Shown here: positions 5,964-28,659 of the stretch, in pieces
Layout: each line of letters starts with the position of its first letter
Position numbering within the stretch: the stretch's first letter is position 1
Assembly (NCBI GenBank): GCA_019429185.1
Contig: JAHYJH010000020.1
Coordinates: 1 to 34,092, forward strand
Length of the DNA: 34,092 bases
Source: Vicingaceae bacterium
GTDB taxonomy: Bacteria > Bacteroidota > Bacteroidia > Flavobacteriales_E > Vicingaceae
Direction of reading: 5' to 3'
The notes under the pieces: generated by a model
Told to the model about the DNA's origin: nothing
Seen by the model: only the letters and a program-made list of their open reading frames with translations
Database searches by the model: none
Made by a program: the position numbers and the translations under genes

Positions 5964-6006
5964 TGATATTCCTCATATCAATTCTGTTGTTTTTCAGTTA
6001 ATTTTG
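5964..6006 (+). promoter_or_regulatory. Candidate promoter and operator of the cytochrome/peroxidase pair
   Basis: TAATTTTG at 5999-6006 matches the -7 consensus TAnnTTTG. A perfect inverted repeat, TGATAT-N5-ATATCA, spans 5964-5980. With a start near 6012 it would be centred at about -40, where class II activators bind. Its half-site spacing differs from the TGAT-N4-ATCA sites elsewhere in the window, so the binding protein is unknown. Confidence 0.4.
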
Positions 6007-6025: not shown

Positions 6026-6394
6026 ATGTTGTTTCGAGTTATCATCATATTTTTACTAATCTGTAGCACCTGTGCTTGCAAGTACGATGCAATAAAACCT
6101 AACACAACAGCATTACCTATCGAAAACAACATCATTATTGATGGTGTAATTACCTATAATTCGCACATAAAAAAAATTATAGATTATAACTGCAAGGCTT
6201 GTCATAGTGCCTACCCTATTAATCAAACTCCATATTTAGAAACTTATGAGGATGTAAGAATTGAAGCTATGTATGGAATATTAAAGCATCGTGTTGTTGA
6301 TGAATATCCTTCAGTAATGCCACCAAACAAAAGTCTATCAAATTATGAGAAACAACTTATCCTAGTATGGATTAATCAAGATTGTATTGAATAA
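6026..6394 (+). CDS. Small mono-haem c-type cytochrome lipoprotein
   Basis: 122 residues. A hydrophobic N-terminus (4-15) runs into Cys13, Cys16 and Cys18, suggesting a lipoprotein although the lipobox is not canonical. One haem-binding CxxCH motif is at Cys56-Cys59-His60 in a stretch like the cytochrome c-like domain seen before planctomycete/Bacteroidota PSD1-type proteins. Met98 in VMPPNKSLS is the likely sixth haem ligand. It probably carries electrons on the periplasmic side. The di-haem peroxidase gene begins 105 bases downstream on the same strand, so a shared transcript and partnership are likely. The exact partner is inference. Confidence 0.75.
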   Translation: MLFRVIIIFLLICSTCACKYDAIKPNTTALPIENNIIIDGVITYNSHIKKIIDYNCKACHSAYPINQTPYLETYEDVRIEAMYGILKHRVVDEYPSVMPPNKSLSNYEKQLILVWINQDCIE

Positions 6395-7580: not shown

Positions 7581-7655
7581 TGACTTAAATCATTTTTTTA
7601 AACAAGTATATACGTGTAATTTTATCAATGAAATTATTATGAATGATGTATATCA
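7581..7655 (+). promoter_or_regulatory. FNR-like boxes and promoter before the hemerythrin gene
   Basis: TGACTTAAATCA (7581-7592) differs by one base from TGAT-N4-ATCA, and TGATGTATATCA (7644-7655) matches it fully. Between them, TAATTTTA (7617-7624) resembles the -7 box. If that box is used, the first site is centred near -41, the class II activator position, and the second lies in the leader. The same geometry appears before the nar operon. Confidence 0.5.
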
Positions 7656-7685: not shown

Positions 7686-8354
7686 ATGAAAATAATTGAT
7701 AAAGAAACTGGCAGAAGACTTAATGAAATTGACCCTGTTAAAGGAAATCCAGAAAAAGATATTTCTATCCAAGAAGATGAATTATCGCCAATGGATCCAC
7801 CAGATGCCTATTCATCTTATGCTAAAATTGAACTTGATAACACCGAATTAAATGAAAGTTTGATGCTACTCAAAGAAGAACACGAAGAAGTTATTGTTGT
7901 GTTGGATATTTTTGAAAAAGCACTAAATCAATTTAAGGAATTAAATTATGAGTTAAATGATGAAATAAATGATGGATTTAAAAAATTCTTCGATTTCTTC
8001 GATAATGAATTACTTGTTCATAATAGAAAAGAAGAAAAAACATTGTTTCCAATACTTCAAAAAGCCCTGATAGCCAATAATGAACATGGAACGGGAGAAA
8101 ACCCTGTAACTGCTGTTGATATTATGGAAGACGACCATGTGAAATTTATTCAATTAGGGGCTTTAGTGTTTAATTTTTTAGGTTTAGCTCCACGATTAAG
8201 GGATACCCAATCTAGAATATTTACCTATGATGTAGCTTTTAACAATGCCAAAGAATTAATTGAACTCATTCGTTTACATATTTTCAGAGAAGACAACACG
8301 CTTTTCCCTTTAGCACAAAAATTTATAGCTCCAGAAGATTTTAAATCAATGTGA
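7686..8354 (+). CDS. Hemerythrin HHE-domain protein
   Basis: 222 residues. After a polar N-terminus (1-55) lies a four-helix hemerythrin-like domain. Candidate di-iron ligands are His66 (KEEHEE), His112 with Glu116 (VHNRKEEKTLFP), His151 (EDDHVKF) and His198 with Glu202 (LHIFREDNTLFP). The repeated H-x3-E...LFP pattern is the HHE signature. There is no signal peptide, so it is cytoplasmic. Family members bind O2 or NO, or help repair iron centres; the ScdA-type N-terminal domain of RIC/YtfE is not seen. FNR-like boxes upstream and moaA 55 bases downstream suggest a role in low-oxygen or nitrosative conditions during nitrate respiration. That role is inference. Confidence 0.85.
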   Translation: MKIIDKETGRRLNEIDPVKGNPEKDISIQEDELSPMDPPDAYSSYAKIELDNTELNESLMLLKEEHEEVIVVLDIFEKALNQFKELNYELNDEINDGFKKFFDFFDNELLVHNRKEEKTLFPILQKALIANNEHGTGENPVTAVDIMEDDHVKFIQLGALVFNFLGLAPRLRDTQSRIFTYDVAFNNAKELIELIRLHIFREDNTLFPLAQKFIAPEDFKSM

Positions 8355-8356
8355 TA

Positions 8357-8382
8357 ATGTGTAAATTTGAAAATGTGTGAAT
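8357..8382 (+). repeat. Short direct repeat with possible -7 box before moaA
   Basis: ATGTGTAAATT is followed 5 bases later by ATGTGTGAATT. TAAATTTG at 8362-8369 matches TAnnTTTG but has no TTG at -33, so moaA may be expressed both from here and by read-through from the hemerythrin gene. Confidence 0.35.
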
Positions 8383-8409
8383 TAATAACGCCTAACTACT
8401 TATAAAATC

Positions 8410-9408
8410 ATGACCCCAACAATCACAGACCAATTTGGAAGAAAGCACGATTACCTCAGAATTTCACTTACCGAAAGATGTAATTTGAGATGCGTATATT
8501 GTATGCCAGAAAATGGAATTGAACTTTCAGAAAAAGAAAATTTGATGACGCATGAAGAAGTGATTAGTATCGCAAAAACATTTGTTGAAATGGGTGTGCG
8601 AAAAATAAGATTAACTGGAGGCGAACCACTTATTAAAAAAAATGTCGAAAAAATTATTATTGAACTTACCAAACTTCCTATTAATCTCGGAATAACCACC
8701 AATGGTATTTTACTTGATAACTATTTAGAACTCTTTAAAAAATCGGGAGTTAAAGACATTAACATCAGTTTAGATACCCTTAAAAGAGAAAAATTTAATT
8801 CCATTACAAGAAGAGATTATTTTGATAGAGTAATGAACAACATTAATCTTTACGAAGCCAATGGATTTAATATAAAAATCAATAATGTATTAATTAAAGG
8901 AATGAATGAAGATGAAATGCTTGATTTTATAGAATTTACCAAAAATAAAAATGTTGCCATCCGATTTATTGAGTTTATGCCTTTTAATGGAAATAAATGG
9001 AATACCGAAAAAGTAGTTACACTCAATGAAATTTTAGCTGCTGCTGAAGAAAGATATAGTTCTGAAAATATTATCAAACTAAAAAGCAAGAAAAACGGAA
9101 CAGCTAAAAACTTCCAAATTAAAGGATACAAAGGTTCTTTTGGTGTTATCAGTACTGTTTCCAATCCATTTTGCGATAGTTGCAACAGAATTAGATTAAC
9201 CGCCAACGGACGTATAAAAAACTGCTTATTTTCATCCACCGAAACTAATTTATTAGCTCCTTTAAGAGAAGGAAAAAACATAGCCCCTTATATTTTAGAG
9301 GGAGTTTTTCATAAATTTAAAACCCGAGGAGGAATGACTTCCGATAAAGATTTCTCTGACATTGAAAAAAACTCCAACAACAGAACAATGATAACTATTG
9401 GAGGCTAA
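8410..9408 (+). CDS. moaA: GTP 3',8-cyclase MoaA (molybdenum cofactor biosynthesis)
   Basis: 332 residues, normal length. Radical-SAM cysteines are Cys24, Cys28 and Cys31 (RCNLRCVYC). The second, GTP-binding [4Fe-4S] cluster uses Cys255, Cys258 and Cys272 in the family spacing C-x2-C-x13-C. The chain ends in the required GG. With MoaC the enzyme converts GTP to cyclic pyranopterin monophosphate, the first step of molybdenum cofactor synthesis. No other moa/mo genes are in the window. It follows the hemerythrin gene by 55 bases. Its stop (9406-9408) overlaps the stop of the converging PorP/SprF gene by two bases, leaving no room for a separate terminator. It probably supports NarG, which needs this cofactor. 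Confidence 0.96.
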   Translation: MTPTITDQFGRKHDYLRISLTERCNLRCVYCMPENGIELSEKENLMTHEEVISIAKTFVEMGVRKIRLTGGEPLIKKNVEKIIIELTKLPINLGITTNGILLDNYLELFKKSGVKDINISLDTLKREKFNSITRRDYFDRVMNNINLYEANGFNIKINNVLIKGMNEDEMLDFIEFTKNKNVAIRFIEFMPFNGNKWNTEKVVTLNEILAAAEERYSSENIIKLKSKKNGTAKNFQIKGYKGSFGVISTVSNPFCDSCNRIRLTANGRIKNCLFSSTETNLLAPLREGKNIAPYILEGVFHKFKTRGGMTSDKDFSDIEKNSNNRTMITIGG

Positions 9409-10548: not shown

Positions 10549-13500
10549 TTATCTAATTATGGCTATTTCGCCTTGTAATGTAACTTTTTCATCTGCAATG
10601 GTTACACCGGTAAACACATATACATAAGATCCTGAAGGTTGACTACTTCCTTTAAAAGAACCATCCCAACCATCTGCCTGGTCATCAGATATAAATATTT
10701 CTTGTCCCCACTCATTGTAAACCGTTAATTGATACGATTTAAAAGGACCTCCTAATATGCTGAACACATCATTTATTCCGTCTCCATTTGGTGAAAATGC
10801 TGTAGGAACAACTACGGGTTTCACATCATCTCCAATAATTTCAAAGTCATACGTTATAGTATCAACACAACCCGCTGCATTGGTCGCAATCAAAGTAACT
10901 GTAAACAATCCATTTGCTCCATAACTATAACTTGGGTTGGAAAGTATTGAGGTATCCCCATTATTCCCAAAATCCCAAAAATAGGTTGTTGCATTTTGAC
11001 TTTGATTCATAAAATCAATAACCTGATTAATGTTAAACTGACCTCCCTGAGGTGTAAAATCAGCAATAGGAAGTGGACTAATTGTTAATGTTATGGTATC
11101 GGTAACTGCATCACACAAGCCATTGTTGGTAGTTGTTAATGCTATCATTACTGTTCCATTAACTATATCTCCCGCTGATGGAATATACTGAGCATTCAAT
11201 GTAAAATTATCTGGAACAAAAGTTCCTGTTCCATCGGTTGTCCATTCTCCACCACCCGCATTAGTAATACCTCCATTTAATGATACATTTTCTCCTTCAC
11301 AAATCGTGATATTATTTCCGGCATCTGCAATTGGTGCAGGATCAATGGTAATAACAATGGTATCAGCGGCAGGAACACAAGAATTAATCGCTTCTAAAAC
11401 TAAAACAATAAAACCATTAGAAATATCTGAAGAATCTATCTGATAACTTGCATTCAAATCATTTGCTGATGGAGTAAACATTCCATTTCCAGAGCTAGAC
11501 CATACTCCTGCTCCAGTACCTCCGAACACTTGTCCATTAAGTTGGATAGAGTCATTGTTTGCACAAATAGTAGTATCGTTTCCTGCAAAAACAGTTGCTG
11601 GAGAAGAAAGGAATACTTCAACAGTATCATAAACAGCTAAACATCCTCCATTATTGGTGCTTTCAAGAATTAAGATTACACTACCATTAATTGAATCTTG
11701 TTGACTAAATGTATAAGATGCATTGAGTGTTAAACTATCTGGAGAGAATGTTCCTGTTCCCATAGTAGTCCAAGCTCCAGTTGATGAACCACCAGTAACA
11801 GAACCATTTAAAGTTGTTGTTAATGTGCCATTACAAATTAAAATATCCGAACCAGCATCTACTACAGGTGCTGGAGTTATGGTAATAACAATAGAGTCTA
11901 TAGCAGCACTACAAAATCCATTTTGGGTAGTAGTTAAATAAATAGTTACAGAGCCATTAGCAATATCATTTGTACCTGCATTATAGGTAACATTTGCACT
12001 TATAGTATCAGGAGTAAATGTGCCATCTCCAGAGGTTGACCAAACCATTCCTCCTGCATCGGCTATACTTCCTGATAAATCAACTTGTGCATTATTTGCA
12101 CATACTGAAGTATCTACTCCTGCATCTGCAAAAGGAGCAGGTAAAATTTCAATAGTGTCTGTATATGTTGCTGCTGCACAACCTCCAGAAGCTACTATAT
12201 CATTAGTTACGGCATAAACACCTGGAGAACTTGCTGATAGGTTGATTTGACCTGTGCTTGTATTTATGAAAACCAAACCTGCTGGTAAGGCACTAAATAC
12301 TCCTGCACTCGACCCAGGTGAAAATGTTGGTGTTGGATTACTTCCTGATGTACAAAAAGGATCATTGTATGAGAAAGTTGCATCAGGTGCATTAGTAATA
12401 GTAACTGTAAATGTTGCACTATCAGAACACACTCCATCTGTAGTAAAAATAACCGTATAAGTTCCCAATGTTGTTAACGCAACATCTATTTCACCTGTTA
12501 GTGAATCAACAAACACAAGCCCTGATGGTGTTGCACTAAAAGAACCTGTTGATCCGCCTGTAATTACTGGTATTGCATTTCCTCCACTCACACAAAAAGT
12601 AGCTGATGAATAACTAAAAGAAGGATCGTCTAATGGCGTAACTGTAACTGTTACTGGTGTTCTGGTTGAACTTGTACATCCATTAACAGTAGTTTGCACA
12701 TAATAAGTTGTAGTAGTACTTAAAACAGGTGTGGTAAAACTAGCTCCAGTATTTAATAATGTGCCGCCACTTGAAGCACTATACCACTCATACGTTCCTC
12801 CTGGAGCTGTTGCTATTAATGTAGTAGAAGTTCCTTCACAAATAGTATCATTGTTTGCTGTTGGAGCTGCTGGTATAGGATTAATAGTAATTACAACTGT
12901 ATCACTAACAGCAGAACAGGGTCCTGCTGGGTCATCAGTAGTTAAAATTAATGTTACAACAGTTTCAGATGGATCAGGGGTATATGTTGCCGTAGGTGTT
13001 GAATTATTGGGCGAAAATGTCCCTAAGCCTCCACTCCATGTTCCCGATGAAGCTGTTCCTCCTATTGATCCTGAAAGTGGTGCGTTATCTCCAAAACAAA
13101 TACTCATATCAGCACCAGCATTAACTGTAGGGGCTATATCAATGGTAAAAGTTGTAGAGTGAGTTGCCGAAGCACATCCTCCTGCAGCTGCAATAAAATT
13201 AGTAACTGTATATGTTCCCGGTGTAGATGTTGTTATATCAATTTCTCCTGTAGCAGTATTTACAAATACAAGCCCTGTTGGAGATGCACTAAATACACCT
13301 GCACTTGCCCCTGGTGTAAATGAAGGAAATTCATTTGAAGCACCCTGACAAACTGGAGTTGTATAAGAAAAGGTAGCATCAAATCCATTCGTTATAGTTA
13401 TATTAACCGAATCTGTTGTAGGACAAGTTCCATTAGTTGTAAAACTTACCGTATATGTTCCCAATGCACTTGCTCCCAAATTAATTTCTCCAGTAGCTGA

Positions 13501-16500
13501 ATTTACAAAAACTAAACCTGCTGGTGTTGCTGAAAAAGCTCCTGTAGATCCTCCAGTAATGTTAGGAACAGGGTTTGTTCCAGTAGCACAATAAGTTCCA
13601 GATGAATAAGTAAATGATGGGTCGTCTTGATTAAAAGTAATTATTACCGTATCTGATGCTGCTGTACAAACTCCTCCTGGACTATTTGTAGTGAGTATTA
13701 AAGACAATGAGCCTGCTAAATATTCTCCAGCTGTTGGGGTATATGTAGCATTAACCGTAGTATTATTTGGATTAAAAGTACCTGCACCACCAGACCAACT
13801 TGCACTAGTAGCAATTCCTCCAAAAGAACCATTTAATGAAACCAAATCACCTACGCAAATAGTAGTATCATTACCTGCATTTACTATTGCTGCCTCTTCT
13901 ATTACAACTGTAGTTGAGTGTGAAGCTGATGCACACCCTCCTGATGCAGCTATAAAATTAGTTATCGTATAAGTTCCAAATGCACTAGTTAATAAATCAA
14001 TTTCACCTGTGCTTGTATTTACAAAATTTAAACCCACAGGTGTTGCACTAAACACTCCTGCACTTGATCCAACAGGGAAATTAGGCAACGGATTTGTTAT
14101 AAACTGACAAAAAGGATCATTATATGAGAATGTTGCATCTGGTGCGGTAGTAATAGTTACCGATACAGATGAGGACATTGGGCAAGTTCCATTAGTAGTA
14201 TAAGTAACTGTATAAGTTCCTAAAGTGCTAGAAGACACTGTAATTTCTCCTGTACTTGGATTTATTGTTAACCCTGAAGGAGTTGAAGAAAAAGTTCCTC
14301 CAGGTGTTCCTGTAATAGTTGGAGTAGGATTTGTTCCTGTGATACAAAATGTACCTGATGAATAAGAAAAAGAAGGATCATCATTTGGAATAACTGTAAC
14401 TGTTACTGAAGTTCTTGGACTAGTACAACCTCCAACTGTTGTTTGTACATAATAAGTAGTTGTAGTTATTAAAATAGGTGTTGTGTATGAAGCTCCTGTA
14501 TTTAATAATGTTCCACCGGTAGGTGCATTATACCATCTGTAAGTTGGTCCAGGTGCAGTGGCTGTTAATGTTGCTGTATTTCCCTCACAAATGGTAACTC
14601 CATTTACTGTCGGAGCTGCTGGTATTGGGTTTACAGTAACTGTAACAGTAGTCATAGCACTTGTACATCCATTTACCGTTGTTTGCACATAATAAGAAGT
14701 TGTAGCTGTTAATACTGGTGTTGTATAAGTAGCTCCTGTATTTACAAGATTTCCTCCTGTAGGTGCATCATACCATTCATAAGTTCCTCCGGGAGAAGTA
14801 GCTGTTAATGTTGCTGTATTTCCATCACAAATAGTGGCATTACCTACAATTGGAGCCGTAGGTATAGGATTTACAACTACAATTACCATAGTTCTAACAC
14901 TTGGACAACCTAAAATGGTTGTTTGAACATAAAAAGTATCGCTAACTGTTAAAGCTATAGTAGTATAACTAGCCCCTGTAAATAATAATGTTCCTCCAAC
15001 AGCAGCATCATACCATTCATACGTTCCACCTGGAGCTGTAGCAAAAAGTGTAGTCGTTTCTCCTGCACAAATAGTATCTCCACTTACAGTAGGAGCAACA
15101 GGAGTTGGGTTAACGGTTACGGTTACTGTAGTTCTTGGTCCCGCACATCCATTTACCGTTGTTTGAACATAATAAGATGTTGTTGTAGTTAATATTGGTG
15201 TTGTAAAAGTAGCTCCTGTATTTACAAGATTTCCACCTGTAGGAGCATCATACCATTCATACGTTCCTCCAGGTGCTGTGGCTGTTAAAATTGTAGAACT
15301 ACCTTCACAAATAGTAGTATCATTTACAGTTGGAGCAGCTGGTAAAGGAATAATATTAATCGAAACAGTATCTACAACTGCAGCACATACATTTGCAGGA
15401 TTATCTGTGGTTAAAATTAATGTAACTATTCCTGCCGATTGCTCTGCTGCACTTGGAGTATATGTAGCATTTAATGTGTTAGCATTTGGAGCATAAGTCC
15501 CTGTACCTCCACTCCAAGTTGCAGTTGTTGCACTACCTCCAATAGTTCCATTTAAACTTAATGTTGCTCCCGAACATATATCACTATAAGTTCCAGCATT
15601 CACTATTGCAGCTTCATCTATAGTAATTGTAAAAGTAGCTGATGCTGAAGCACACCCTCCTGCTGCTGCAATAAAATTAGTTATCGTATATGTTCCAAAT
15701 GCACTAGTTGATAAATCAATTTCCCCGGTACTTGTATTTACAAATACTAACCCTACCGGAGTAGCACTAAACACCCCTGCACTTGCTCCTAGTGGGAATG
15801 AAGGTAATTCATTAGCCCCACTTTGGCATATTGGTGTATTATATGAAAAAGTTGCATCAGGAGCGTTAGTTATAGTAACACTAACTGAACTACTATCAGG
15901 ACAAGGTCCGTTTGTTGTAAAAGTAATGGTGTAAGTGTTTAATGCACTTGCCGACACATCAATAGTTCCTGTTGATGAATTAATAACTAAGCCAACTGGA
16001 GAGGAAGTAAATGTACCTCCAAAACTTCCATTTATAGTTGGTGTAGGATCTGTTCCTGTAATACAATACGTACCTGAAGAATAATTAAATGAAGCGTCAT
16101 CAGTTGGAGTAACGGTAACAATTACTGCTGTTCTTGGTCCAGAGCAACCATTAATGGTTGTTTGAACATAAAATGTATCTGTAGTAGTTAAAATGGGTGT
16201 GGTATAAGTAGCTCCTGTAAACAACAATGTTCCTCCTGTTAGTGCATTATACCATTCATACGTTCCTCCAGGAGCTGTAGCTGTTAAACTTGTTGAGTTG
16301 CCCTCACATATAGTTACACCATTAGTAGTAGGTGCCGCTGGTGTGAGATTTACAGTAACTGTTACGGCTGTTCTTGGCCCCGTACATCCAGAAACGGTAG
16401 TTTGTACATAGTAAGTAGTTGTAGCGACTAAAACTGGAGTAGTATAACTTGCTCCTGTAAATAATAAAGTTCCACCACTTGCTGCATTATACCATTGATA

Positions 16501-19500
16501 TGTACCCCCAGGAGCCGTTGCTGTTAAAGTAGCTGTATTTCCTGAACAAATTGTTGTGTCAGATACCGTTGGTGCTACAGGTGCTATGTTTACGGTAATT
16601 GTTCCTGTAGCATTCACTATTCCACAACCACCTGTTAAAGGTATGCTATAATTAAATGTTCCTGCTACTGTTGGTGTTCCACTTATCGTAATGGTGTTTC
16701 CTGCCCAAGTCGCGGTAACTCCTGTTGGTAATCCTGATGCTGCTCCTATACCTGTTGCTCCTGTAGTGGTGTGGGTTATGGGTGTTATCGCTACATTGAT
16801 ACACACTGTTGGCGATGATGATGCAACAGATACCGTGTTGTTTGGTGTTACGGTAATTGTTCCTGTAGCATTCACTGTTCCACAACCACCTGTTAAAGGT
16901 ATGCTATAATTAAATGTCCCTGCTACTGTTGGTGTTCCGCTTATTGTAATAGTGTTTCCTGCCCAAGTTGCGGTAACTCCTGCTGGTAATCCTGATGCTG
17001 CTCCTATACCTGTTGCTCCTGTAGTGGTATGGGTTATGGGCGTTATCGCTACATTGATACACACTATTGGTGATGATGATGCAACAGATACCGTGTTGTT
17101 TGGTGTTACGGTAATTGTTCCTGTAGCATTCACTGCTCCACAACCACCTGTTAAAGGTATGCTATAATTAAATGTGCCAAGTACTGTTGGTGTTCCGCTT
17201 ATCGTAATGGAATTTCCTGCCCAAGTTGCGATAACTCCTGTTGGTAATCCTGATGCTGCTCCTATACCTGTTGCTCCTGTAGTGGTGTGGGTTATGGGTG
17301 TTATTGCTACATTGATACACACTGTTGGTGTAGATGATGGTGCTGAAGCTGTATTAGGTGTGATTACTGTTATAGTTCCCGTAGCATTTACTGTTCCACA
17401 ACCACCTGTTAAAGGTATGCTATAATTAAATGTACCAAGTACTGTTGGCGTTCCACTTATTGTAATGGTGTTTCCTGCCCAAGTCGCGGTAACTCCTGCT
17501 GGTAATCCTGATGCTACTCCTATACCTGTTGCTCCTGTGGTGGTATGGGTTATGGGCGTTATTGCTGTATTAATACACACTGTTGGTGTAGATGATGGTG
17601 CTGAAACTGTATTAGGTGTGATTACTGTTATAGTTCCCGTAGCATTTACTGTTCCACAACCACCTGTTAAAGGTATGCTATAATTAAATGTACCAAGTAC
17701 TGTTGGCGTTCCACTTATCGTAATGGTGTTTCCTGCCCAAGTCGCGGTAACTCCTGTTGGTAATCCTGATGCTACTCCTATACCTGTTGCTCCTGTGGTG
17801 GTATGGGTTATGGGCGTTATTGCTACATTGACACAGACTGTTGGTGATGATGATGCAACAGATACCGTATTGTTTGGAGTTACGGTAATTGTTCCCGTAG
17901 CATTCACTGTTCCACAACCACCTGTTAAAGGTATGCTATAATTAAATGTCCCTGCTACTGTTGGTGTTCCGCTTATTGTAATAGTGTTTCCTGCCCAAGT
18001 TGCGGTAACTCCTGTTGGTAATCCTGATGCTACTCCTATACCTGTTGCTCCTGTAGTGGTGTGGGTTATGGGTGTTATCGCTACATTGATACACACTGTT
18101 GGCGATGATGATGCAACAGATACCGTGTTGTTTGGTGTTACGGTAATTGTTCCTGTAGCATTCACTGTTCCACAACCACCTGTTAAAGGTATGCTATAAT
18201 TAAATGTCCCTGCTACTGTTGGTGTTCCGCTTATCGTAATGGTGTTTACTGCCCAAGTTGCGGTAACTCCTGCTGGTAATCCTGATGCTGCTCCTATACC
18301 TGTTGCTCCTGTGGTAGTATGGGTTATGGGCGTTATCGCTACATTGATACACACTGTTGGTGATGATGATGCAACAGATACCGTGTTGTTTGGTGTTACG
18401 GTAACAGTAACTGCAGTTCTTGAACTTGTACAACCAGATACTGTGGTTTGTACATAATAAGTAGTTGTTGCAACTAAAACTGGAGTAGTATAACTTGATC
18501 CAGTAAATAATAAAGTTCCACCACTTGCTGCATTATACCATTCGTAAGTACCACCTGGAGCTGTGGCAGTTATTGTTGCTGTTGTTCCAGTACAAATAGT
18601 AGTTCCACTAGCTGTTGGAGCCGCAGGTAATGGTGCCGACCCAACAACTATCGTGTCTGACGCTGCAGGGCAATTAGTACTATCAGTAACCGAAACTATA
18701 TATGTTCCTGGTACACTGATACTAATAGCACTCGTTATTTGTCCTCCCGGACTCCATAAATAACTATAAGGTGCACTTCCTCCTGTTATATTTGCTGTGA
18801 GTGTAATTGGATTACCTGAACAAATAGTTGCTACGGCAGGATCAATAGCAACCTCCAAACCAGGTACTAAATTTACTCTGACAGTATCACAAGAAGTTCC
18901 CGAAGCACAACCTGTTGGTATACCACATACCTGATAATCAATAAATGCGGGATACCCTACTTGTGGAGTAACATAAGTAGTATCACAAGCTGAAGTACAA
19001 TTCAAATAAGAATTATATGTTCCAGCAGCACCTGGTGCTATTGAATTCCATGTTATTGATGATTGAACCAAACCTTCTACATACAATTCTCCAACACAAT
19101 TTGAATTGATGGTAATATCTGGAGCGGCTGAAAAAGTTCTTGATGAAGATATAGTATATGTAGGAGAGTCTCCTCCACTTTTACAAAAAACAATACAAAA
19201 ACTGGTCATTCCAGTTACACAAAGTGGAGTTCCTAAAGATGTAGGTAGTCCACAATTTACCTGATAAAAAGCTCCACCTGGAGGTGCAGGGTTTGCAACA
19301 TTAAAACTTACTTCATTTGCCCCTGGATTTATAGTAACATCGAATCGAATACAATTAGTACCTGTAGCTCCACAACACAACCCACTTCGGATACTGGTCA
19401 TCGAAAATGTAGTATCAGGATTGGCTGATAAATTAACAGGAACTGTTGTTGGTGATTCACAGGGAGTACATTGTGAATAAACACTTAACCCACTAAATAG

Positions 19501-19545
19501 TCCTAAAAAAATTAGAAAACTAGCAACGATGTATTTTTTAACCAT
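10549..19545 (-). CDS. Giant Ig-like surface adhesin with T9SS type B C-terminal domain (SprB-like)
   Basis: 2998 residues. Signal peptide 1-25. Residues 384-985 are seven tandem 86-residue repeats with two Cys each, resembling putative Ig (He_PIG) domains ([11 protein letters not shown]...[12 protein letters not shown]). Around and after them are eight ~80-residue Ig-like units with [11 protein letters not shown] and YYVQTTV signatures, then four pairs of units starting PSFSYSSGT and DATFSYN, then Cys-containing repeats with DTTIC/LNG motifs. A PKD domain lies at about 2828-2905 and the CHU_C domain at about 2913-2998 ([13 protein letters not shown], ending IAIIR). It should be exported by T9SS and displayed on the surface for adhesion or gliding. 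A PorP/SprF gene follows, as sprF follows sprB. No catalytic domain is recognised. Confidence 0.9.
16591..18396 (-). repeat. Seven tandem 258-bp coding repeats in the adhesin gene
   Basis: Seven in-frame copies of exactly 258 bp (86 codons) run from 18396 down to 16591, nearly identical in DNA. Marker changes divide them: copies 1, 2, 6 and 7 have TVAGTF, copies 3-5 have TVLGTF, and copies 4 and 5 also start ITPNT with SAPSST instead of TPNNT with SVASSS. The pattern suggests block duplication or gene conversion. Copy number is likely variable and hard to assemble with short reads. Confidence 0.95.
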
Positions 19546-19731: not shown

Positions 19732-20388
19732 ATGGATTCATTTTTAAAACAATACTGTTCTCCCGAATGGCAAGCTTTTGTTGACTTTCATAAAGAAACT
19801 AGAGAATTTAAAGCTAATGAAATTATTTTAAATGAAGGTGACCCAGTAAATGGTTTTCTTATTATTAATAAAGGTAAAGCAAAAGTATATTCAACAAATT
19901 CAGAAGGTAAAGAAATGATTATCCGTTTAGCTGCTGACGGTTATATCATTGGACATAGAGGGTTTGGAGGAGATTGGACTTACCCTGTTTCTGCAAAAGC
20001 CTACGAAAAAACAATAGTAACTTACATTCCTTTAACAATTTTCAATCAAGTAGCTAGAGCCAATGTTGAATTTACATATCAATTAATGATGTTTTTTGCC
20101 GAAGAACTAAGACAATCTGAAGAAAAGAACAATTTAATTCCAGTTAAAAATAGAGTTGCAAAAGCAATTTTAGCAAATTATGCTGTTTTTGGTTCAGACC
20201 CAAAAGATTCATTAAAAATAAGTTACACGATTAGTCGAAAAGATTTTGCAAGTAAAGCGAATACTACTTATGAAACTGTTATAAGAGTATTAGCCGAATT
20301 AAACAAAGAAAATATTATTCAACTACAAGCTAAATCTATACGAATTTTAGACTTACAAAGACTGAAAGAAATATCAGAATTAGCCTAA
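19732..20388 (+). CDS. Crp/Fnr family transcriptional regulator
   Basis: 218 residues. The N-terminal cyclic-nucleotide-binding-type beta-barrel spans about 15-115 (LNEGDPVNGFLIINKGKAKVY), then a dimerisation helix and a winged helix-turn-helix at about 167-200. In the recognition helix, Glu181 and Arg185 match FNR's Glu and Arg, but FNR's Ser is Ile184. Only one cysteine (Cys9) is present, so it cannot hold an FNR-type [4Fe-4S] cluster. It may sense NO through haem, like DNR, or another signal. It lies 254 bases upstream of the nar operon, whose promoter has TGAT-N4-ATCA sites. The pairing with those sites is inference from position and helix residues. Confidence 0.9.
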   Translation: MDSFLKQYCSPEWQAFVDFHKETREFKANEIILNEGDPVNGFLIINKGKAKVYSTNSEGKEMIIRLAADGYIIGHRGFGGDWTYPVSAKAYEKTIVTYIPLTIFNQVARANVEFTYQLMMFFAEELRQSEEKNNLIPVKNRVAKAILANYAVFGSDPKDSLKISYTISRKDFASKANTTYETVIRVLAELNKENIIQLQAKSIRILDLQRLKEISELA

Positions 20389-20642
20389 TTCTAACTCATT
20401 CTTTTAATTATTACTTCCTGTTTACTCGTGTTTTTTCACAACACGACATCATCATCCATCTATTTATTTTTACTGTCTTTTATGATTTAAAACATTATTA
20501 CTACTCAATTTAACCTTAAAATATGACATGAATCATGTTTGTATATGATTTGAATCATTTTTAAAAAATATTAATCTATAGAATTTTATATCGTTAAAAG
20601 AACCTAATAAATAAAGTCTGATATAAATCATTAAAAAGCACA
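20389..20642 (+). promoter_or_regulatory. nar operon control region with FNR-like boxes
   Basis: TGACATGAATCA (20524-20535, one mismatch) and TGATTTGAATCA (20546-20557, perfect TGAT-N4-ATCA) have centres 22 bp apart, two helical turns. A third perfect site, TGATATAAATCA, is at 20619-20630, 12 bases before the ATG. A degenerate -7-like stretch (TAGAATTTTA, 20579-20588) lies about 32 bases after the second site, putting that site near -41. One further near-match is at 20483-20494. No gene is seen here. Confidence 0.6.
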
Positions 20643-21521
20643 ATGAAAATGAAACTAAAATTAATCGGAGCAACTGTTTCAATAGTTTTGTCTGGCATGA
20701 CAATGAATGCCCAAGATGGAGAAGCATTGTTTAAACAAACTTGTAGTGCATGTCACACTATTGGAAAGGGTAAATTAGTAGGTCCTGATTTAAAAGGAGT
20801 AAACACTAAAAGAAGTGAAGCGTGGATTATTAGCTTTGTAAAAAATGCACAAACTTTTGGTGAAAAAGATGCTGATGCAAAAGCAATGATTGCAGAATAT
20901 GGTTATCCAATGCCTAGCCAAACTATTTCAGATGCTGACATTAAAGCAATTATTTCTCATATAGAAGCAAATAGCCCAACAGAAGCTGCTGAAACAACAA
21001 CTGAGGCAGTACCTGTAGAAGAAGTAAAACAAGACCCAGCTTTAGACCCAGCAAATGCCAGTCAAGAAGATATTTTAGCGGGTATTATGTTGTTTTCTGG
21101 TGAACACCGTCTCGAAAATGGTGGACCTTCTTGTATTACCTGTCACAATGTACAACATGGAGATTTAATTGCTGGAGGCTTGTTAGCTAAAGACTTAACC
21201 AAAGTATATGAACGATTGGGTGCTGCAGGAATAAACGGAATGTTATCTGCCCCTCCTTTTCCAGCAATGGCAGCATCTTACAAAGACAGTCCATTAACTG
21301 AAAAAGAAATTTTTCAATTGTCTGCTTTTTTTAATGATGCAGCCGTAAATACTGTTTATCAACCTCAACGAACCTATAATGATAATTTGCTTTTATATGG
21401 TGGAGGTGTTGCATTTATCATTATTGCATCAATAATACTATTAATGTTTATTGAACGTAAAAGAAAATGTGTGAAAGAAGACATTTACAAAAGACAAATT
21501 AAAGCAGCGTGTTCTAAATAA
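20643..21521 (+). CDS. Membrane-anchored di-haem cytochrome c of the nitrate reductase operon
   Basis: 292 residues. Signal peptide 1-24 (ending MNAQ). First cytochrome c domain: Cys34-Ser-Ala-Cys37-His38, with Met90 as possible ligand. A Thr/Glu/Pro linker covers about 110-142. Second haem site: Cys164-Ile-Thr-Cys167-His168, with Met209 a candidate ligand. One transmembrane helix at 249-270 is followed by a basic 22-residue tail, so both haems face the periplasm. It is the first gene of the nar operon. In Thermus thermophilus the nar operon also begins with a di-haem cytochrome gene, narC, needed for electron transfer to the reductase; homology to that protein was not tested. It probably passes electrons to or from NarI or another carrier. 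Confidence 0.82.
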   Translation: MKMKLKLIGATVSIVLSGMTMNAQDGEALFKQTCSACHTIGKGKLVGPDLKGVNTKRSEAWIISFVKNAQTFGEKDADAKAMIAEYGYPMPSQTISDADIKAIISHIEANSPTEAAETTTEAVPVEEVKQDPALDPANASQEDILAGIMLFSGEHRLENGGPSCITCHNVQHGDLIAGGLLAKDLTKVYERLGAAGINGMLSAPPFPAMAASYKDSPLTEKEIFQLSAFFNDAAVNTVYQPQRTYNDNLLLYGGGVAFIIIASIILLMFIERKRKCVKEDIYKRQIKAACSK

Positions 21522-21681: not shown

Positions 21682-24600
21682 ATGAGTTGGATAGAAGACA
21701 TTATCTCACCTAAAACCCGAAAATGGGAAGAATTTTATCGTAACAGATGGCAGTATGATAAAGTGGTACGAAGTACGCACGGTGTTAACTGTACAGGTGG
21801 TTGCTCTTGGGCAATTCACGTAAAAGACGGTATAGTTGTATGGGAAATGCAACAAGTAGATTACCCACAATTTAATAAAGAAGTTCCTCCTTATGAGCCA
21901 AGAGGTTGTCAAAGAGGTATTTCGTATTCTTGGTATTTGTACAGCCCTATCCGTGTTAAATATCCAATTATGCGTGGTGCATTAATTGATTTATTTAACA
22001 TAGAAAAAGAAGCTGCTGGAGGCGATTTAGTAAAAGCTTGGGAAAACTTACAAAAAGACCCTGTAAAAAGAGCTCGATATCAAAGAGCAAGAGGTAAAGG
22101 TGGTTTTAGAAGAGTTAGATGGGATGAAGCATTGGATTTAATTGCAGCGGCTAACATCTATACTGTTCAAAAATATGGTTCTGATAGAATTATTGGTTTT
22201 GCTCCAATTCCTGCAAAAAGTATGTTGAGTTACGCTTCTGGTGCCAGATACCTACAATTAATGGGTGGTGTTAACTTAAGTTTCTACGATTGGTATTGTG
22301 ATTTACCAAATGCTTACCCTGAAATTTGGGGAGAACAAACTGATGTGTGCGAAAGTGCCGATTGGTTCATCTCTAAATTTATTGTTTCGATGGGTGCAAA
22401 CCTTGGTATGACAAGAACTCCAGATATTCACTTTTTCTCAGAAGCTCGTCATAATGGAACAAAAACGGTGGTAATGTCGCCCGACTTTAGTATGGTAACC
22501 AAACATGCCGATCAATGGATTCCTGTTCATGCAGGTTCTGATGGTGCTTTTTGGATGGCAGTTACACATGTAATTTTACAAGAATACCACGTAAACAAAA
22601 AAACACCTTACTTTATAGAATACACGAAAAGATACACTGATTGTCCTTTCTTGGTACGGTTAAATAAAGATGGTGATAAATTGGTTCCCGGAAGAATGGT
22701 TAGAGCCAACGAAATGGAACAATTTAAAAACATTACCAATGGCGATTGGAAATTCTTAAATTTCGACACAAAAACTGGTGGATTAGTTATTCCAAAAGGC
22801 TCAATGGGTCAACGTTGGGATGACAAACAAGGTAACTGGAACTTGAAATACGAAGACAGTGAATCTAACGCAGTTTATGATCCAGAATTAACATTCATCG
22901 ATAAATACGATGATGTTGCTCAAGTTGAATTTGTGGAATACGGATTAGATAAAAAAGCGATGAGAGGTGTTCCTGTTCGTTATATTACATTGGCTTCAGG
23001 CGAAAAAGTTCCTGTTGCAACAATTTATGATTTAACCATGTCGCAATATGGTGTTAGTAGAGGTTTGGCTGGTGATTATCCAACATCTTATGATGATAAA
23101 GATCAAGCCTACACTCCGGCATGGCAAGAAATTTTTACCGGAATTGGTAGAGATACCGTATTGCAATTGGCTCGTGAATGGTCTGATACTGCTGAAATTA
23201 CTGAAGGAAAATGTATGGTAATTGTTGGAGCGGCTATCAATCACTGGTTTCACGGCAATTTAATGTATCGTGCAGCTATTATGGCTCAAATGCTTACCGG
23301 TTGTAATGGTAAAAATGGTGGTGGTATGAATCACTATGTTGGACAAGAAAAATTAGCTCCAATGGATTCATGGTCAACCATAATGAGTTCTAAAGATTGG
23401 GGTACAATTCCAAGATTACAACAAGGGCCTATTTGGCATTACATCAACTCTTCACAATGGAGGTATGATGGAAATCAAAAATTCTATAACTCCGTTCCTG
23501 AAAATAAATTGGCACACACACATACTGCCGATTGGGCTGTAAAAGCGGTTCGTAACGGTTGGATGCCTTATTATCCTCAATACAACAAAAACAATTTCGA
23601 AATTGTAAAAGATGCTCAAAAAGCAGGTTTTACTACTGATGACGACATGCGTAACTACATTGTTAAACAACTAGTTTCAGGCGAATTAAAACATGCGGTA
23701 GTTGAACCAGATGAAGAAATCAACTTCCCAAGAAACTGGTTTATTTGGAAAGGTAACGCTATTGGAACTTCAGCAAAAGGGCATGAGTATTTCTTAGATC
23801 ATTATTTAGGAACGCATACCAATAAAATTGCGGATGAAGTTGCTGATGATATTGTTGAAGACATTGTTTTCAAAAAAGAAGGTGCAAGAGGTAAAATGGA
23901 TTTAGTAATTGATATTAATTTCCGTATGGATACATCAGCTTTATATTCTGATATTGTTTTACCTACTGCATCTTGGTACGAAAAAGCAGATATCAACTCA
24001 ACAGATATGCACTCGTTTATTCATCCATTATCTGCTGCAATTGACCCAGTTTGGGAATCAAAAACAGATTGGCAAATTTTTGAAGCATTAGCTGAAAGAG
24101 TAAGCGAAATGGCTCCAAAATATTTACCAGGAGTAATGAAAGATGTGGTAAACTCACCGCTATCTCACGATTCTAAAGATGAAATTACGCAACCTCGTTT
24201 ACAAGATTGGAGCAAAGGCGAATGTGAAGCAATTCCCGGAAAAACCATGCACAAAATTGCTTTTGTAGAACGTGATTATTCTAAAATTTACGACAAATTT
24301 ATTTCTCTAGGAAATGGTGTAGCTAAAAACGGCTTAGGAGCTCATGGTAATCACTATCATTGCGAAGATGTGTATGGCGAAATGTTGGAGAACAGACAAC
24401 ACATTAGTAAATGGGATGATGGTACCGAATATCCATCATTAAAAGAAGATGTGGAAGCGATTAATGCAGTATTAAAATTATCAACCTTAACCAATGGTAA
24501 ACTAACTAAACGTGCTTACGAAATAATGGGTAAAAAAATTGGTGTGGAAGCTGTTGAAAGATTGGGCGATGGTTACGAGCAAATCGAAATGGAATATCGC

Positions 24601-25323
24601 GATCTACAAGCTCAACCAAAACGATATAATTCTTCACCACTTTGGTCAGGTTTAATGCACGAAGGAAGAACCTACGCTGCTTACACCTACAACGTAGATA
24701 TGTTAGTTCCATGGAGAACATTAACCGGAAGACAACATTTTTACTTAGACCATGATGCCTACATTGCATTTGGTGAACATTTATCAACCTACAAACCATC
24801 ACCAACTCCTGAGGCTTATGGCGATTTAAGGGTAACGATTAACGATGGTAAAGCAAGAATGTTAAATTGTTTAACTCCTCACGGAAAGTGGCACATTCAC
24901 TCTACTTATGGTGATACATTAAGAATGTTAACCTTATCGAGAGGCGGAGAACCATGTTGGTTAAGTGAAAAAGATGCTGAAGAGTTAGGAATTAAAGATA
25001 ACGACCATGTAGAAGTGTATAACGACCACGGAACTTATGTAACTCGTGCTTGTGTGAGTGCTCGTATTCCTAAAGGTGTTTGTATTGTTTACCATGCTGT
25101 GGAAAGAACCTACAACATTGCCAAATCTCAAGAAAGAAGAGGTAAAAATGGAGAACCAAGACGTGGTGGTATGAACAACTCATTTACCAGAGTTCACTTA
25201 AAACCAAACTTAATGTGTGGTGGTTACGGACAATTTTCTTACCACTTCAATTATTGGGGACCTGTAGGAGTTAACCGTGATACGCATGTATTAGTTCGTA
25301 AAATGACAAAAGTAGAATACTAA
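21682..25323 (+). CDS. narG: Respiratory nitrate reductase alpha subunit NarG
   Basis: 1213 residues (E. coli 1247). The N-terminal FS0 cluster ligands are His33, Cys37, Cys41 and Cys76 ([13 protein letters not shown]). The molybdenum ligand Asp is in [11 protein letters not shown], near residue 203. The Mo-bisMGD-binding core continues through residue about 1100, and the C-terminal domain ends TKVEY. It reduces nitrate to nitrite using electrons from NarH. No twin-arginine signal is present, so the catalytic face is inferred to be cytoplasmic as in E. coli. The gene is second in the operon, with palindromic repeats on both sides. Nitrate would need a transporter, and no narK lies in the window. 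Identification is certain from the motifs and the neighbours. Confidence 0.98.
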
Positions 25324-25479: not shown

Positions 25480-26973
25480 ATGAATATAAGATCGCAAATA
25501 TCAATGGTTTTTCACCTCGACAAATGTATCGGTTGCCATACTTGTTCAGTTGCTTGTAAAAACATTTGGACAGACCGAAAAGGTGCTGAATACATGTGGT
25601 GGAATAACGTGGAAACTAAACCAGGAACTGGTTATCCAACTAAATGGGAAGATCAAGAAATTTACCAAGGTGGTTGGGTAAAAAATGGTGATACCGTTTC
25701 ATTAAAAGGAGCTGGAAAATTAAAAGGATTGAAAAATATTTTTCACAATCCAAACATGCCAGTATTAGATGATTATTATGAGCCTTGGGCTTATCGTTAC
25801 CAAGATTTGTTTGATGCACCGGAAGGTGATGATCAACCCATCGGTAGAGCAGTATCATTAATTACTGGCGAACCAATGGAAATTCAAGCAGGTCCAAACT
25901 GGGATGATGATTTATCTGGAACACCTGATTATGCTCGTAAAGATGTTAATTTCAAACATTTAAGTCAGGCAGAACAAGAAGCCATGTTCCAACTGGAAAA
26001 AATGACATTTCATTATTTGCCCCGTATTTGTAACCACTGTTTAAACCCTGCTTGTGTTGGTTCTTGTCCTTCAGGAGCTTTATACAAAAGAGGTGAAGAT
26101 GGTGTGGTTTTAATCAATCAAGAAAGATGTAGAGCTTGGAGAATGTGTGTAACTGCTTGTCCTTACAAAAAAAGCTACTACAACTGGAATACTGGAAAAT
26201 CTGAAAAATGTGTACTTTGTTATCCACGTTTAGAATCGGCTCAACCACCAGCTTGTATGCACTCATGTGTGGGAAGAATTCGTTATTTAGGAGTAATGTT
26301 GTATGATGCAGATCAAATTCAGGCTGTTGCTTCTTGTGATGAAAATCAATTAGTGGACAGACATTTAGATATTTATCTGAATCCAAACGACCCTGCAGTG
26401 ATTAAAGCGGCAAAAGCAAATGGAATCGCTGATTCAACAATTAAAGCAGCTCAAAACTCACCAGTTTATAAGTTCGTAAAAGAATGGAAAATTGCTCTTC
26501 CTTTACATCCTGAGTTTAGAACTTTACCTAACTTATTTTACGTTCCACCATTGTTGCCTGCTATGGCTTCGGTTAGTGCGGATGGAATTTACGATACCGT
26601 TTCTGAACATTTATTAGCTGGTGTAGAAAAATTAAGAGTTCCAATTCGTTATTTGTCTTCATTATTTACTGCCGGAAACGACCAAAAAGTAATTGATGTG
26701 TTTAAAAAATTGCACGCAGTTAGGGTTTCTAGAAGAGATACAACTGTAAAAGATGTTACTGAATCTCAATTAAATACGGTAATGAACGAAGCTAATATTG
26801 ATATTCATACTGCTAACGCTATTTTTAGATTAACTTCTTTAGCAACTTTTGAAGAACGATTTGTAATTCCTGCTGCTCACCGTGAAGAAGCCATTGAAAT
26901 GCTTGAAAACACAGGTGATTACAAAGGAAGTACAGGTTTTGGATTTAAAGAAAAACCAGCGAGAGGATTATAA
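25480..26973 (+). CDS. narH: Respiratory nitrate reductase beta subunit NarH
   Basis: 497 residues (E. coli 512). The first cluster's cysteines are Cys16, 19, 22 and 26 (CIGCHTCSVACK). Further clusters lie in CNHCLNPACVGSCPSGA, CRAWRMCVTACP, EKCVLCYP and ACMHSCVGR. The Trp in CRAWRMC replaces a cysteine and gives the [3Fe-4S] cluster, as in E. coli. NarH relays electrons from the haems of NarI to NarG on the cytoplasmic face of the membrane. The C-terminal half is the NarH-specific domain (FRTLPNLFYVPPLLP). A palindromic repeat lies directly before and after the gene. Confidence 0.98.
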   Translation: MNIRSQISMVFHLDKCIGCHTCSVACKNIWTDRKGAEYMWWNNVETKPGTGYPTKWEDQEIYQGGWVKNGDTVSLKGAGKLKGLKNIFHNPNMPVLDDYYEPWAYRYQDLFDAPEGDDQPIGRAVSLITGEPMEIQAGPNWDDDLSGTPDYARKDVNFKHLSQAEQEAMFQLEKMTFHYLPRICNHCLNPACVGSCPSGALYKRGEDGVVLINQERCRAWRMCVTACPYKKSYYNWNTGKSEKCVLCYPRLESAQPPACMHSCVGRIRYLGVMLYDADQIQAVASCDENQLVDRHLDIYLNPNDPAVIKAAKANGIADSTIKAAQNSPVYKFVKEWKIALPLHPEFRTLPNLFYVPPLLPAMASVSADGIYDTVSEHLLAGVEKLRVPIRYLSSLFTAGNDQKVIDVFKKLHAVRVSRRDTTVKDVTESQLNTVMNEANIDIHTANAIFRLTSLATFEERFVIPAAHREEAIEMLENTGDYKGSTGFGFKEKPARGL

Positions 26974-27048: not shown

Positions 27049-27780
27049 ATGAAAAATTTAGAACATTATACATTACTTGCCGAGTTGTTTCGATATCCCA
27101 AACAAGATATTAAAGCAACAGTAGTTGAAATTCAGCAATTTTTAACTAAAAATTATCCTGAAGCTGGAAAAGAATTTGTTCGTTTTTCAGAATTTATTGC
27201 TGATTCTACCTATCCTCAAATTGAAGAAATTTTTCAAAAAACTTTTCATATTCAAGCCATCTGTTTTTTAGATTTAGGTTATGTAATTTTTGCCGAAGAT
27301 TATAAAAGAGGTGAGTTTTTAGTAAATATGAAAGCTGAACAAGATAAATATCAAAACGATTGCGAACATGAATTAGCTGATAATTTACCCTATGTTTTGA
27401 GGTTACTACCCATGCACAAGAACGAAAGTTTCGTTAACGAATTGGTGGTGATGATAATGATTCCTGCACTTGAAAAAATGCTTTCGGAATTTGATGCAGC
27501 AAAAACTCAAATAAGAGAAAAGGTGTTGAACAAAAAGCAAAAAGTAATTATTATGGAAGGCATTAAAGATGGAAACATTTATAAGAATGCCATCAGTTCA
27601 TTAATCATGGTGTTCAAAAAAGATTTTGAAGATGTGGTATATGAAAAACAAGTTGAAATTATTCCAGCTTATGCAAAAGCATTTTTACACAGCGATTGTG
27701 AAGATGGTTGTAGTGTTTCAACACCCACACCAGAACAAGTTAAACAACGAGCTATGGAACAAATGGGAATACCCACCTAA
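27049..27780 (+). CDS. narJ: Nitrate reductase assembly chaperone NarJ
   Basis: 243 residues, all-helical TorD/NarJ family. The N-terminal LEHYTLLAELFRYPKQ and the central DLGYVIFAEDYKRGEFLVNM are family signatures. NarJ binds NarG in the cytoplasm and allows insertion of the molybdenum cofactor and FS0 cluster before attachment to NarI; it is not part of the final enzyme. A Cys-x3-Cys (DCEDGCS) near the C-terminus is noted without known meaning. The position between narH and narI is the standard order. The ATG at 27049 gives the expected N-terminus. Confidence 0.93.
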   Translation: MKNLEHYTLLAELFRYPKQDIKATVVEIQQFLTKNYPEAGKEFVRFSEFIADSTYPQIEEIFQKTFHIQAICFLDLGYVIFAEDYKRGEFLVNMKAEQDKYQNDCEHELADNLPYVLRLLPMHKNESFVNELVVMIMIPALEKMLSEFDAAKTQIREKVLNKKQKVIIMEGIKDGNIYKNAISSLIMVFKKDFEDVVYEKQVEIIPAYAKAFLHSDCEDGCSVSTPTPEQVKQRAMEQMGIPT

Positions 27781-27909: not shown

Positions 27910-28659
27910 ATGTTAGATTATTTATTATTCGGAGCCTTACCTTATGTTGCACTAGCAGTGTTTTTAATAGGTTCAATTTACAGATATATGAAAAAAGGTT
28001 TTCAAGTATCTTCATTGTCGTCTCAATTTTTAGAAGGCAGACAATTGTTTTTTGGTAGCCAGTTTTTTCACTGGGGTATTGTGATGTTGTTTTTAGGGCA
28101 CTTAATCGGATTTTTAGTACCAAGTGCTGTTATGGCTTGGAATGGCTCCCCTGTTCGGTTGTTAATTTTAGAATTTTCTGCTTTTGGTTTTGCAATATCA
28201 GCATTAATTGGACTATTGTTGTTAATTAAAAGAAGAGCAACTACCAAAAGAATTCAAATGGTATCTAATTACATGGATTATGTAGTTTATTTGGTGTTAT
28301 TTGTACAAATTGTAAGTGGAATTTTAATGGCTTATTATGGCAGATGGGGTTCCAACTGGTTTGCATCAGTAATGACACCTTACTTACGTTCAGTTTTTGC
28401 TTTCAATCCAAATGTAGATTTAATTGCACAACTTTCTACCAGTAATGCCATGGCTTTATTGATGGTAAAAACACATATTGCATCAGCTTTTTTAATTATC
28501 GGAATTATTCCTTTTACACGTTTTGTTCACTTCTTGGTAGCTCCAATCGATTACATCTGGAGAAAATACCAATTGGTTATTTGGAATTGGAATAGTAAAG
28601 AAATTAGAACTTCCAGAAATTATTTTCCCGGAAAAAGTAGAGATTTCAAAAACAATTAA
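27910..28659 (+). CDS. narI: Respiratory nitrate reductase gamma subunit NarI
   Basis: 249 residues (E. coli 225). Five hydrophobic segments are expected. The haem b ligands fit the E. coli spacing: His54 and His64 (ten apart), His189 and His207 (eighteen apart). NarI anchors NarGH to the membrane, oxidises menaquinol on the periplasmic side and passes electrons through two b haems to NarH. It is the last gene of the operon. No typical T-run terminator follows; a perfect 15-bp hairpin lies at 28788-28820. Confidence 0.96.
   Translation: MLDYLLFGALPYVALAVFLIGSIYRYMKKGFQVSSLSSQFLEGRQLFFGSQFFHWGIVMLFLGHLIGFLVPSAVMAWNGSPVRLLILEFSAFGFAISALIGLLLLIKRRATTKRIQMVSNYMDYVVYLVLFVQIVSGILMAYYGRWGSNWFASVMTPYLRSVFAFNPNVDLIAQLSTSNAMALLMVKTHIASAFLIIGIIPFTRFVHFLVAPIDYIWRKYQLVIWNWNSKEIRTSRNYFPGKSRDFKNN

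Follow-up and report, generated by a model that had tools for sequence, protein, structure and literature searches.

Control of a nitrate respiration operon in an environmental member of the Bacteroidota

This locus raises the question of what switches on a nitrate reductase (nar) operon in an environmental member of the Bacteroidota, organisms in which the control of anaerobic genes is poorly described. An earlier note on the window (the whole stretch of DNA that was analysed, 34,092 nucleotides) had claimed that paired FNR-like boxes, 22 bp apart, stand before the operon at 20524-20557. Both boxes proved to be exact matches on the + strand, with a start-to-start distance of 22 bp, and the operon behind them is a genuine nar operon, in which narG, narH and narI exceed their NCBIfam cut-offs and narJ has a weak match. 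The features are as follows.

19732-20388, + strand: Crp/Fnr-family regulator of 218 amino acids (Pfam cNMP_binding and HTH_Crp_2), with one cysteine and no cluster
20524-20535, + strand: distal Crp/Fnr-type box TGACATGAATCA, exact match, predicted centre near -63.5
20546-20557, + strand: proximal Crp/Fnr-type box TGATTTGAATCA, exact match, predicted centre near -41.5
20581-20588, + strand: -7 element GAATTTTA, a variant of TAnnTTTG, at offset 24 after the proximal box
20619-20630, + strand: third box TGATATAAATCA, predicted centre near +32
20643-21521, + strand: c-type cytochrome gene (Pfam Cytochrom_C), the first gene of the nar operon
21682-25323, + strand: narG (TIGR01580, 1430 bits; cut-off 1084)
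25480-26973, + strand: narH (TIGR01660, 662 bits; cut-off 524)
27049-27780, + strand: probable narJ (TIGR00684, 24 bits, below the cut-off of 59), sitting between narH and narI
27910-28659, + strand: narI (TIGR00351, 120 bits; cut-off 106)

Geometry of the nar promoter

The boxes sit in the 254-bp gap between the Crp/Fnr gene and the cytochrome gene, and the third box and the -7 element were found there in addition to the two boxes noted earlier. GAATTTTA matches 4 of the 6 consensus letters of TAnnTTTG, which we take to be the Bacteroidota -7 motif, and predicts a transcription start near 20593. The distance from the centre of the proximal box to the first base of this element (20581) is 29.5 bp, so that, if 20581 is position -12, the box would be centred at about -41.5. 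This geometry, reckoned to the -7 element and a predicted start, fits the claim that the second box lies near -41 of a plausible start, and the spacing of 22 bp bears out the claim that both boxes face the same side of the DNA two turns apart.

Single boxes and pairs compared with chance

Single FNR-type boxes are at chance level in the window and in the genome. Allowing two mismatches, TTGAYNNNNATCAA had 143 matches in the window vs 124 (sd 13) expected, and the box core with one mismatch had 82 vs 72 (sd 11); the genome-wide counts for the strict single box ATGAYNNNNATCAT were 17/17 vs 14/15 for the control. A search for a regulon by single boxes is therefore unusable as evidence. The pair TGAN6TCA-N10-TGAN6TCA was found at 4 places in the whole genome (3.66 Mb), and its reversed control at none. 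When the 254-bp intergenic stretch was shuffled 20,000 times with its dinucleotides preserved, the 22-bp pair arose in 4 shuffles, and three TGAYN4RTCA boxes, which the real stretch carries (at 20524, 20546 and 20619), arose in none.

Conservation across nar loci

We gathered nar loci through their similarity to the NarH and cytochrome proteins, independently of the boxes, which gave 16 distinct loci (the window, L047-L052, L054, L056, L058-L063 and L080; L079 and L081-L083 duplicate records already counted, and the distant nar of G031 was left out). The exact 22-bp pair is present in 11 of the 16, and two more (L060, L063) have the proximal box together with a distal box at 5 of 6 letters. 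The exceptions are three: L059 and L061 show a single box close to the gene, and L058 has no box. Comparison of the eight nearest nar promoters revealed that all 12 letters of the half-sites are invariant and that the 22-bp spacing is kept, as is 7/8 of the -7 element, while the spacers drift, with 2 of 10 and 3 of 23 positions invariant. The promoters thus have the conserved TGA...TCA half-sites that mark the class II type.

A fixed layout in related genomes and across the phylum

We scanned 41 related genomes for two boxes with any gap from 0 to 30. A core spacing of 22 accounted for 49 of the 91 distinct two-box places and any other spacing for at most 6; some of the 49 are homologous to one another and so cannot be taken as independent, which is true of many of the counts given here. 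Past the proximal box, TAnnTTTG (at least 5 of 6 letters) was looked for in 81 oriented items: it begins at offset 24 in 36 of them, and no other offset has more than 3. The items are the intergenic pairs of the fetched loci with a gene start no more than 320 bp away (divergent gaps were entered in both directions and pairs inside genes were excluded). Single boxes with a free gap in the seven near genomes behaved likewise, with the -7 element at offset 24 in 41 of 76. The 29.5 bp between box centre and first base of the -7 element fits class II geometry in such promoters. A distal box is missing from most single-box promoters of the near genomes, so the layout itself does not depend on a pair.

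In a phylum sample of 395 genomes, the pair followed by 23 bases and TAnnTTTG, with at most one mismatch, occurred at 217 sites in 54 genomes, vs 39 sites in 27 genomes when the spacing was set to 23; a single match to the reversed pattern was seen (G059). The window's own class contributed 191 sites in 47 of 98 genomes, vs 28 sites in 17 of 98 for spacing 23. Outside the class seven genomes match, two of them (G310 and G345) with 10 and 11 sites. Arrays of three boxes with 22-bp steps were found at two loci (L174 and L179). We propose from these patterns that two boxes at spacing 22, 23 bases and TAnnTTTG make up a promoter type of the class Bacteroidia for anaerobic genes.

Genes behind the layout

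In the window's own genome, which belongs to the Flavobacteriales, a benzoyl-CoA reductase subunit C gene stands behind a 22-bp pair (contig C67, L149:5306-6526; 440 bits, NCBIfam cut-off 421). On contig C152 (L150:937-7114), divergent genes for a ferredoxin/pyruvate:ferredoxin oxidoreductase and a 2-oxoacid oxidoreductase share one common pair, with a perfect TACATTTG at offset 24 in both directions. The pair on C46, one of the four in this genome, is without a sensible target. Genes similar to benzoyl-CoA reductase also follow pairs in G008 and G031; for G005 this holds of the promoter only. G005 also has the promoter of the own-genome pyruvate:ferredoxin oxidoreductase.

Elsewhere, narK lies behind pairs in G001-G004 and G036 (two of these proteins were scanned, and both fall below the NarK model cut-off). 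Further pair targets are a B12-dependent ribonucleotide reductase (G029), an iron-sulphur repair protein (G036) and universal stress proteins (G013, G027, G028 and G030); universal stress, heat-shock and moeA genes were assigned by inspection. The layout also occurs with a single box, before genes for copper nitrite reductase (352 bits, cut-off 296), tryptophanase and cytochromes and before several crp/fnr genes.

A tandem activator array and its alternatives

We consider it very probable that the boxes form a tandem Crp/Fnr class II activator array that switches cyt-narGHJI and that the promoter is of the Bacteroidia anaerobic type. A dimer on the proximal box, at about -41.5, would replace the -33 element and contact RNA polymerase at GAATTTTA, as in class II activation. 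A dimer on the distal box, at about -63.5, would lie 22 bp or two helical turns behind it on the same face, and could steady the first dimer or touch the polymerase from upstream. The array would thereby switch the operon on without oxygen, with nitrogen oxides, or both. Binding, activation, the signal and the help between dimers are what we infer from the sequence. That the layout recurs before anaerobic genes in many relatives suggests a common switch that responds to oxygen or to nitrogen oxides. Counting against the array are the imperfect match of GAATTTTA to the consensus, the three nar loci with a single box or no box, the many single-box promoters that lack a distal box, and the C46 pair with its lack of a sensible target.

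Two other explanations of the boxes were weighed against an activator array. That they are palindromes arisen by chance in AT-rich DNA, or a hairpin of the terminator kind, would agree with single boxes being no commoner than expected, but is contradicted by the pair statistics, by conservation limited to the half-sites and by the fixed -7 offset; we regard it as scarcely credible and have rejected both versions on the counts of spacing and offset and on conservation. Repression, either by the boxes in general or by the third box at +32 looping with the pair, we hold to be improbable, if less so. It draws on the recurrence of a downstream box, 73-77 bp from the proximal box, at nar, at two narK types and at nirK, but in most such promoters the proximal box is at the predicted activating -41.5 position, and the majority of them have no downstream box. 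The third box is 73-74 bp from the proximal box in six of the eight nearest nar promoters, and the distances at the two narK types and at nirK are 75 and 77 bp. Among the 126 listed promoters, 13 have a downstream box at 45-111 bp, 11 of these at 73-77 bp, and nar homologues make up six of the 11. Such a box may serve repression or a second signal.

Beyond activation of this operon, there is a wider reading that we offer as a conjecture with the chances against it, namely a Bacteroidia anaerobic code of two to three Crp/Fnr dimers at exactly 22 bp, placed 29.5 bp from TAnnTTTG, with divergent readers and an override box. Its readers would be cysteine-cluster FNR-like proteins, cluster-less proteins and receiver-domain-fusion Crp/Fnr proteins, and the box 73-77 bp downstream at nitrate and nitrite genes would let a second signal override the first.

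The strict layout (22 bp, 23 bp, TAnnTTTG) is legible from sequence and predicts both the responding genes and the start base. It would join nitrate respiration with benzoyl-CoA reduction, with carbon metabolism linked to ferredoxin and with stress proteins in a single network, in organisms mostly represented by metagenome bins. The identity of the reader protein and the part played by stacked dimers thereby become directly testable in cultured relatives.

The downstream box of nar, narK and nirK promoters, 73-77 bp past the proximal one, was noted at 20619-20630 and at L047, L048, L049, L050, L051, L252 and L259.

The neighbouring regulator and its paralogues

The Crp/Fnr fold of the regulator at 19732-20388 is clear from its sequence. 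As the earlier note had stated, the protein lacks iron-sulphur cysteines: Cys9 is its sole cysteine, the four cluster-binding cysteines of FNR were not found in it, and the frame upstream of it holds neither a start codon nor a cysteine. It scores 59.5 bits with the NCBIfam Fnr model PRK11161, below the cut-off of 228. The Glu and Arg described as FNR-like in its recognition helix are indeed present (Glu181, Arg185), but they are common to CRP and FNR and so do not mark it as FNR-specific; the other contact positions are Tyr180 and Ile184. Its best match among solved sequences is 2gau (E 9.8e-16, low similarity), presumably a Porphyromonas-type Crp/Fnr structure, for which we know of no regulon.

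Three Crp/Fnr paralogues with N-terminal cysteine clusters are encoded in the same genome (contigs C186, C25 and C47), and the C186 and C25 proteins have the same E[ST]xIR core as the regulator. The C186 protein carries cysteines C13, C16, C27 and C64, the ligand set of a putative iron-sulphur cluster, and scores 96.8 bits with PRK11161, under the cut-off of 228; its gene has a class II box of its own and adjoins moeA. In a tree of 59 Crp/Fnr proteins from the fetched loci, the regulator falls in a clade (n = 12; support 98/92) without a cysteine cluster. The sister rows L087-L091 have a differently spaced C-x4-C-x2-C-x2-C, which the tree labelling scored as cluster absent, and most members of the next group, which includes the own-genome C47 protein (L262), have clusters. 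The simplest reading is that the clade of the nar-linked regulator lost the cluster ligands.

In the hand-entered set of 78 pair sites, 29 have a Crp/Fnr gene within 8 kb, and a receiver-Crp fusion is one of the kinds found near pairs; the layout may thus serve more than one kind of Crp/Fnr protein. Proteins of about 351 amino acids were noted near paired boxes at L154:6529-7584, L173:15525-16583, L176:6432-7490 and L179:6412-7467, and the L154 protein, when scanned, proved to be a Crp/Fnr protein fused to a receiver domain. At L248:465-902, L049:3121-3351 and L050:3849-4151, short proteins that resemble cNMP-binding domains but have no DNA-binding domain adjoin an FNR-like gene, with paired boxes lying between the two genes. 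Directly before the regulator gene, on the - strand, there is an open frame of 2998 codons (10549-19545).

Which protein reads the pair

At least three Crp/Fnr proteins with a matching recognition core are candidate readers: the boxes would be bound by the cysteine-poor neighbour, by FNR-like paralogues with a cysteine cluster, or by both kinds. The neighbour alone could be a dedicated reader that, like DNR and HcpR, responds to nitrogen oxides or some other signal with no need of an iron-sulphur cluster, and we give this roughly one chance in three. In 8 of the 16 nar loci its gene immediately precedes cyt-nar, in other loci it adjoins moaA and a hemerythrin gene, its clade has probably lost the cysteine cluster, and in G002-G004 the gene has a box of its own at the class II position. 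Against this, L054, L056 and L062 keep the pair before nar though the orthologue is not adjacent, and pairs precede other genes in genomes without a close homologue (e.g., G030 and G013). Somewhat better placed, at a little under an even chance, is a cysteine-cluster paralogue (C186, C25 or C47) as the oxygen-sensing reader, with the neighbour modulating it in the manner of Pseudomonas ANR and DNR. The CxxC...C clusters and shared E[ST]xIR core of the C186 and C25 proteins favour it, as do the class II box of the C186 gene and its position beside moeA, but no direct link of the three genes to the nar promoter was found, and presence across genomes did not single them out; indeed, comparing the presence of pairs with that of Crp/Fnr proteins separated no single candidate.

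Comparison with known systems

ANR of Pseudomonas is a cysteine-cluster Crp/Fnr protein and DNR a cluster-less one that senses nitric oxide by means of haem. As there, cluster and cluster-less proteins could share a box type at denitrification genes in the genome studied here; unlike there, the phylum and the promoter type are different, and joint action on the boxes is only conjectured. DNR is covered in PMC1274295, as is HcpR2 of Bacteroides and Porphyromonas, a cluster-less Crp/Fnr regulator of nitrogen-oxide genes in the Bacteroidota. HcpR2 carries Pro, Ser or Gln as residue 181, and its motif, GTAACnnnnGTTAC, is of the GTAAC type. The regulator at 19732-20388 resembles HcpR2 in being a cluster-less Crp/Fnr protein of the Bacteroidota. 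Its identity as HcpR2 was rejected, given Glu181 and TGAN6TCA half-sites instead.

In Escherichia coli, 23 FNR-activated promoters have a start that is known, and 19 of them carry the box at about -41.5; narGHJI has one FNR site, as do 89% of FNR peaks (PMC3688515). The class II FNR promoters of E. coli (narGHJI, narK, dmsABC) are like the present one in having an FNR-type box, which the predicted start would place near -41.5 here too, before nar; unlike narGHJI of E. coli, the present promoter has two boxes at exactly 22 bp, a -7 element of the TAnnTTTG type and a further box downstream. Class II FNR activation at -41.5 is well known. Searches of the open-access literature turned up no account of a strict tandem Crp/Fnr layout with 22-bp spacing in the Bacteroidota.

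Other promoters in the window

Two single-box promoters were found elsewhere in the window.

5964-6006, + strand: single-box promoter of the same layout, with a box at 5964-5975 and TAATTTTG at 5999-6006, before a 122-aa frame at 6026
7581-7655, + strand: hemerythrin-moaA single-box promoter, with a box at 7581-7592, TAATTTTA at 7617-7624 and a downstream box at 7644-7655

The offset of TAATTTTA is one base long, and the orthologous promoters in L251 and L080 have offset 24. The downstream box of the hemerythrin promoter lies at 63 bp. The cluster of hemerythrin and moaA genes that follows (7686-9408) adjoins the regulator gene in several relatives.
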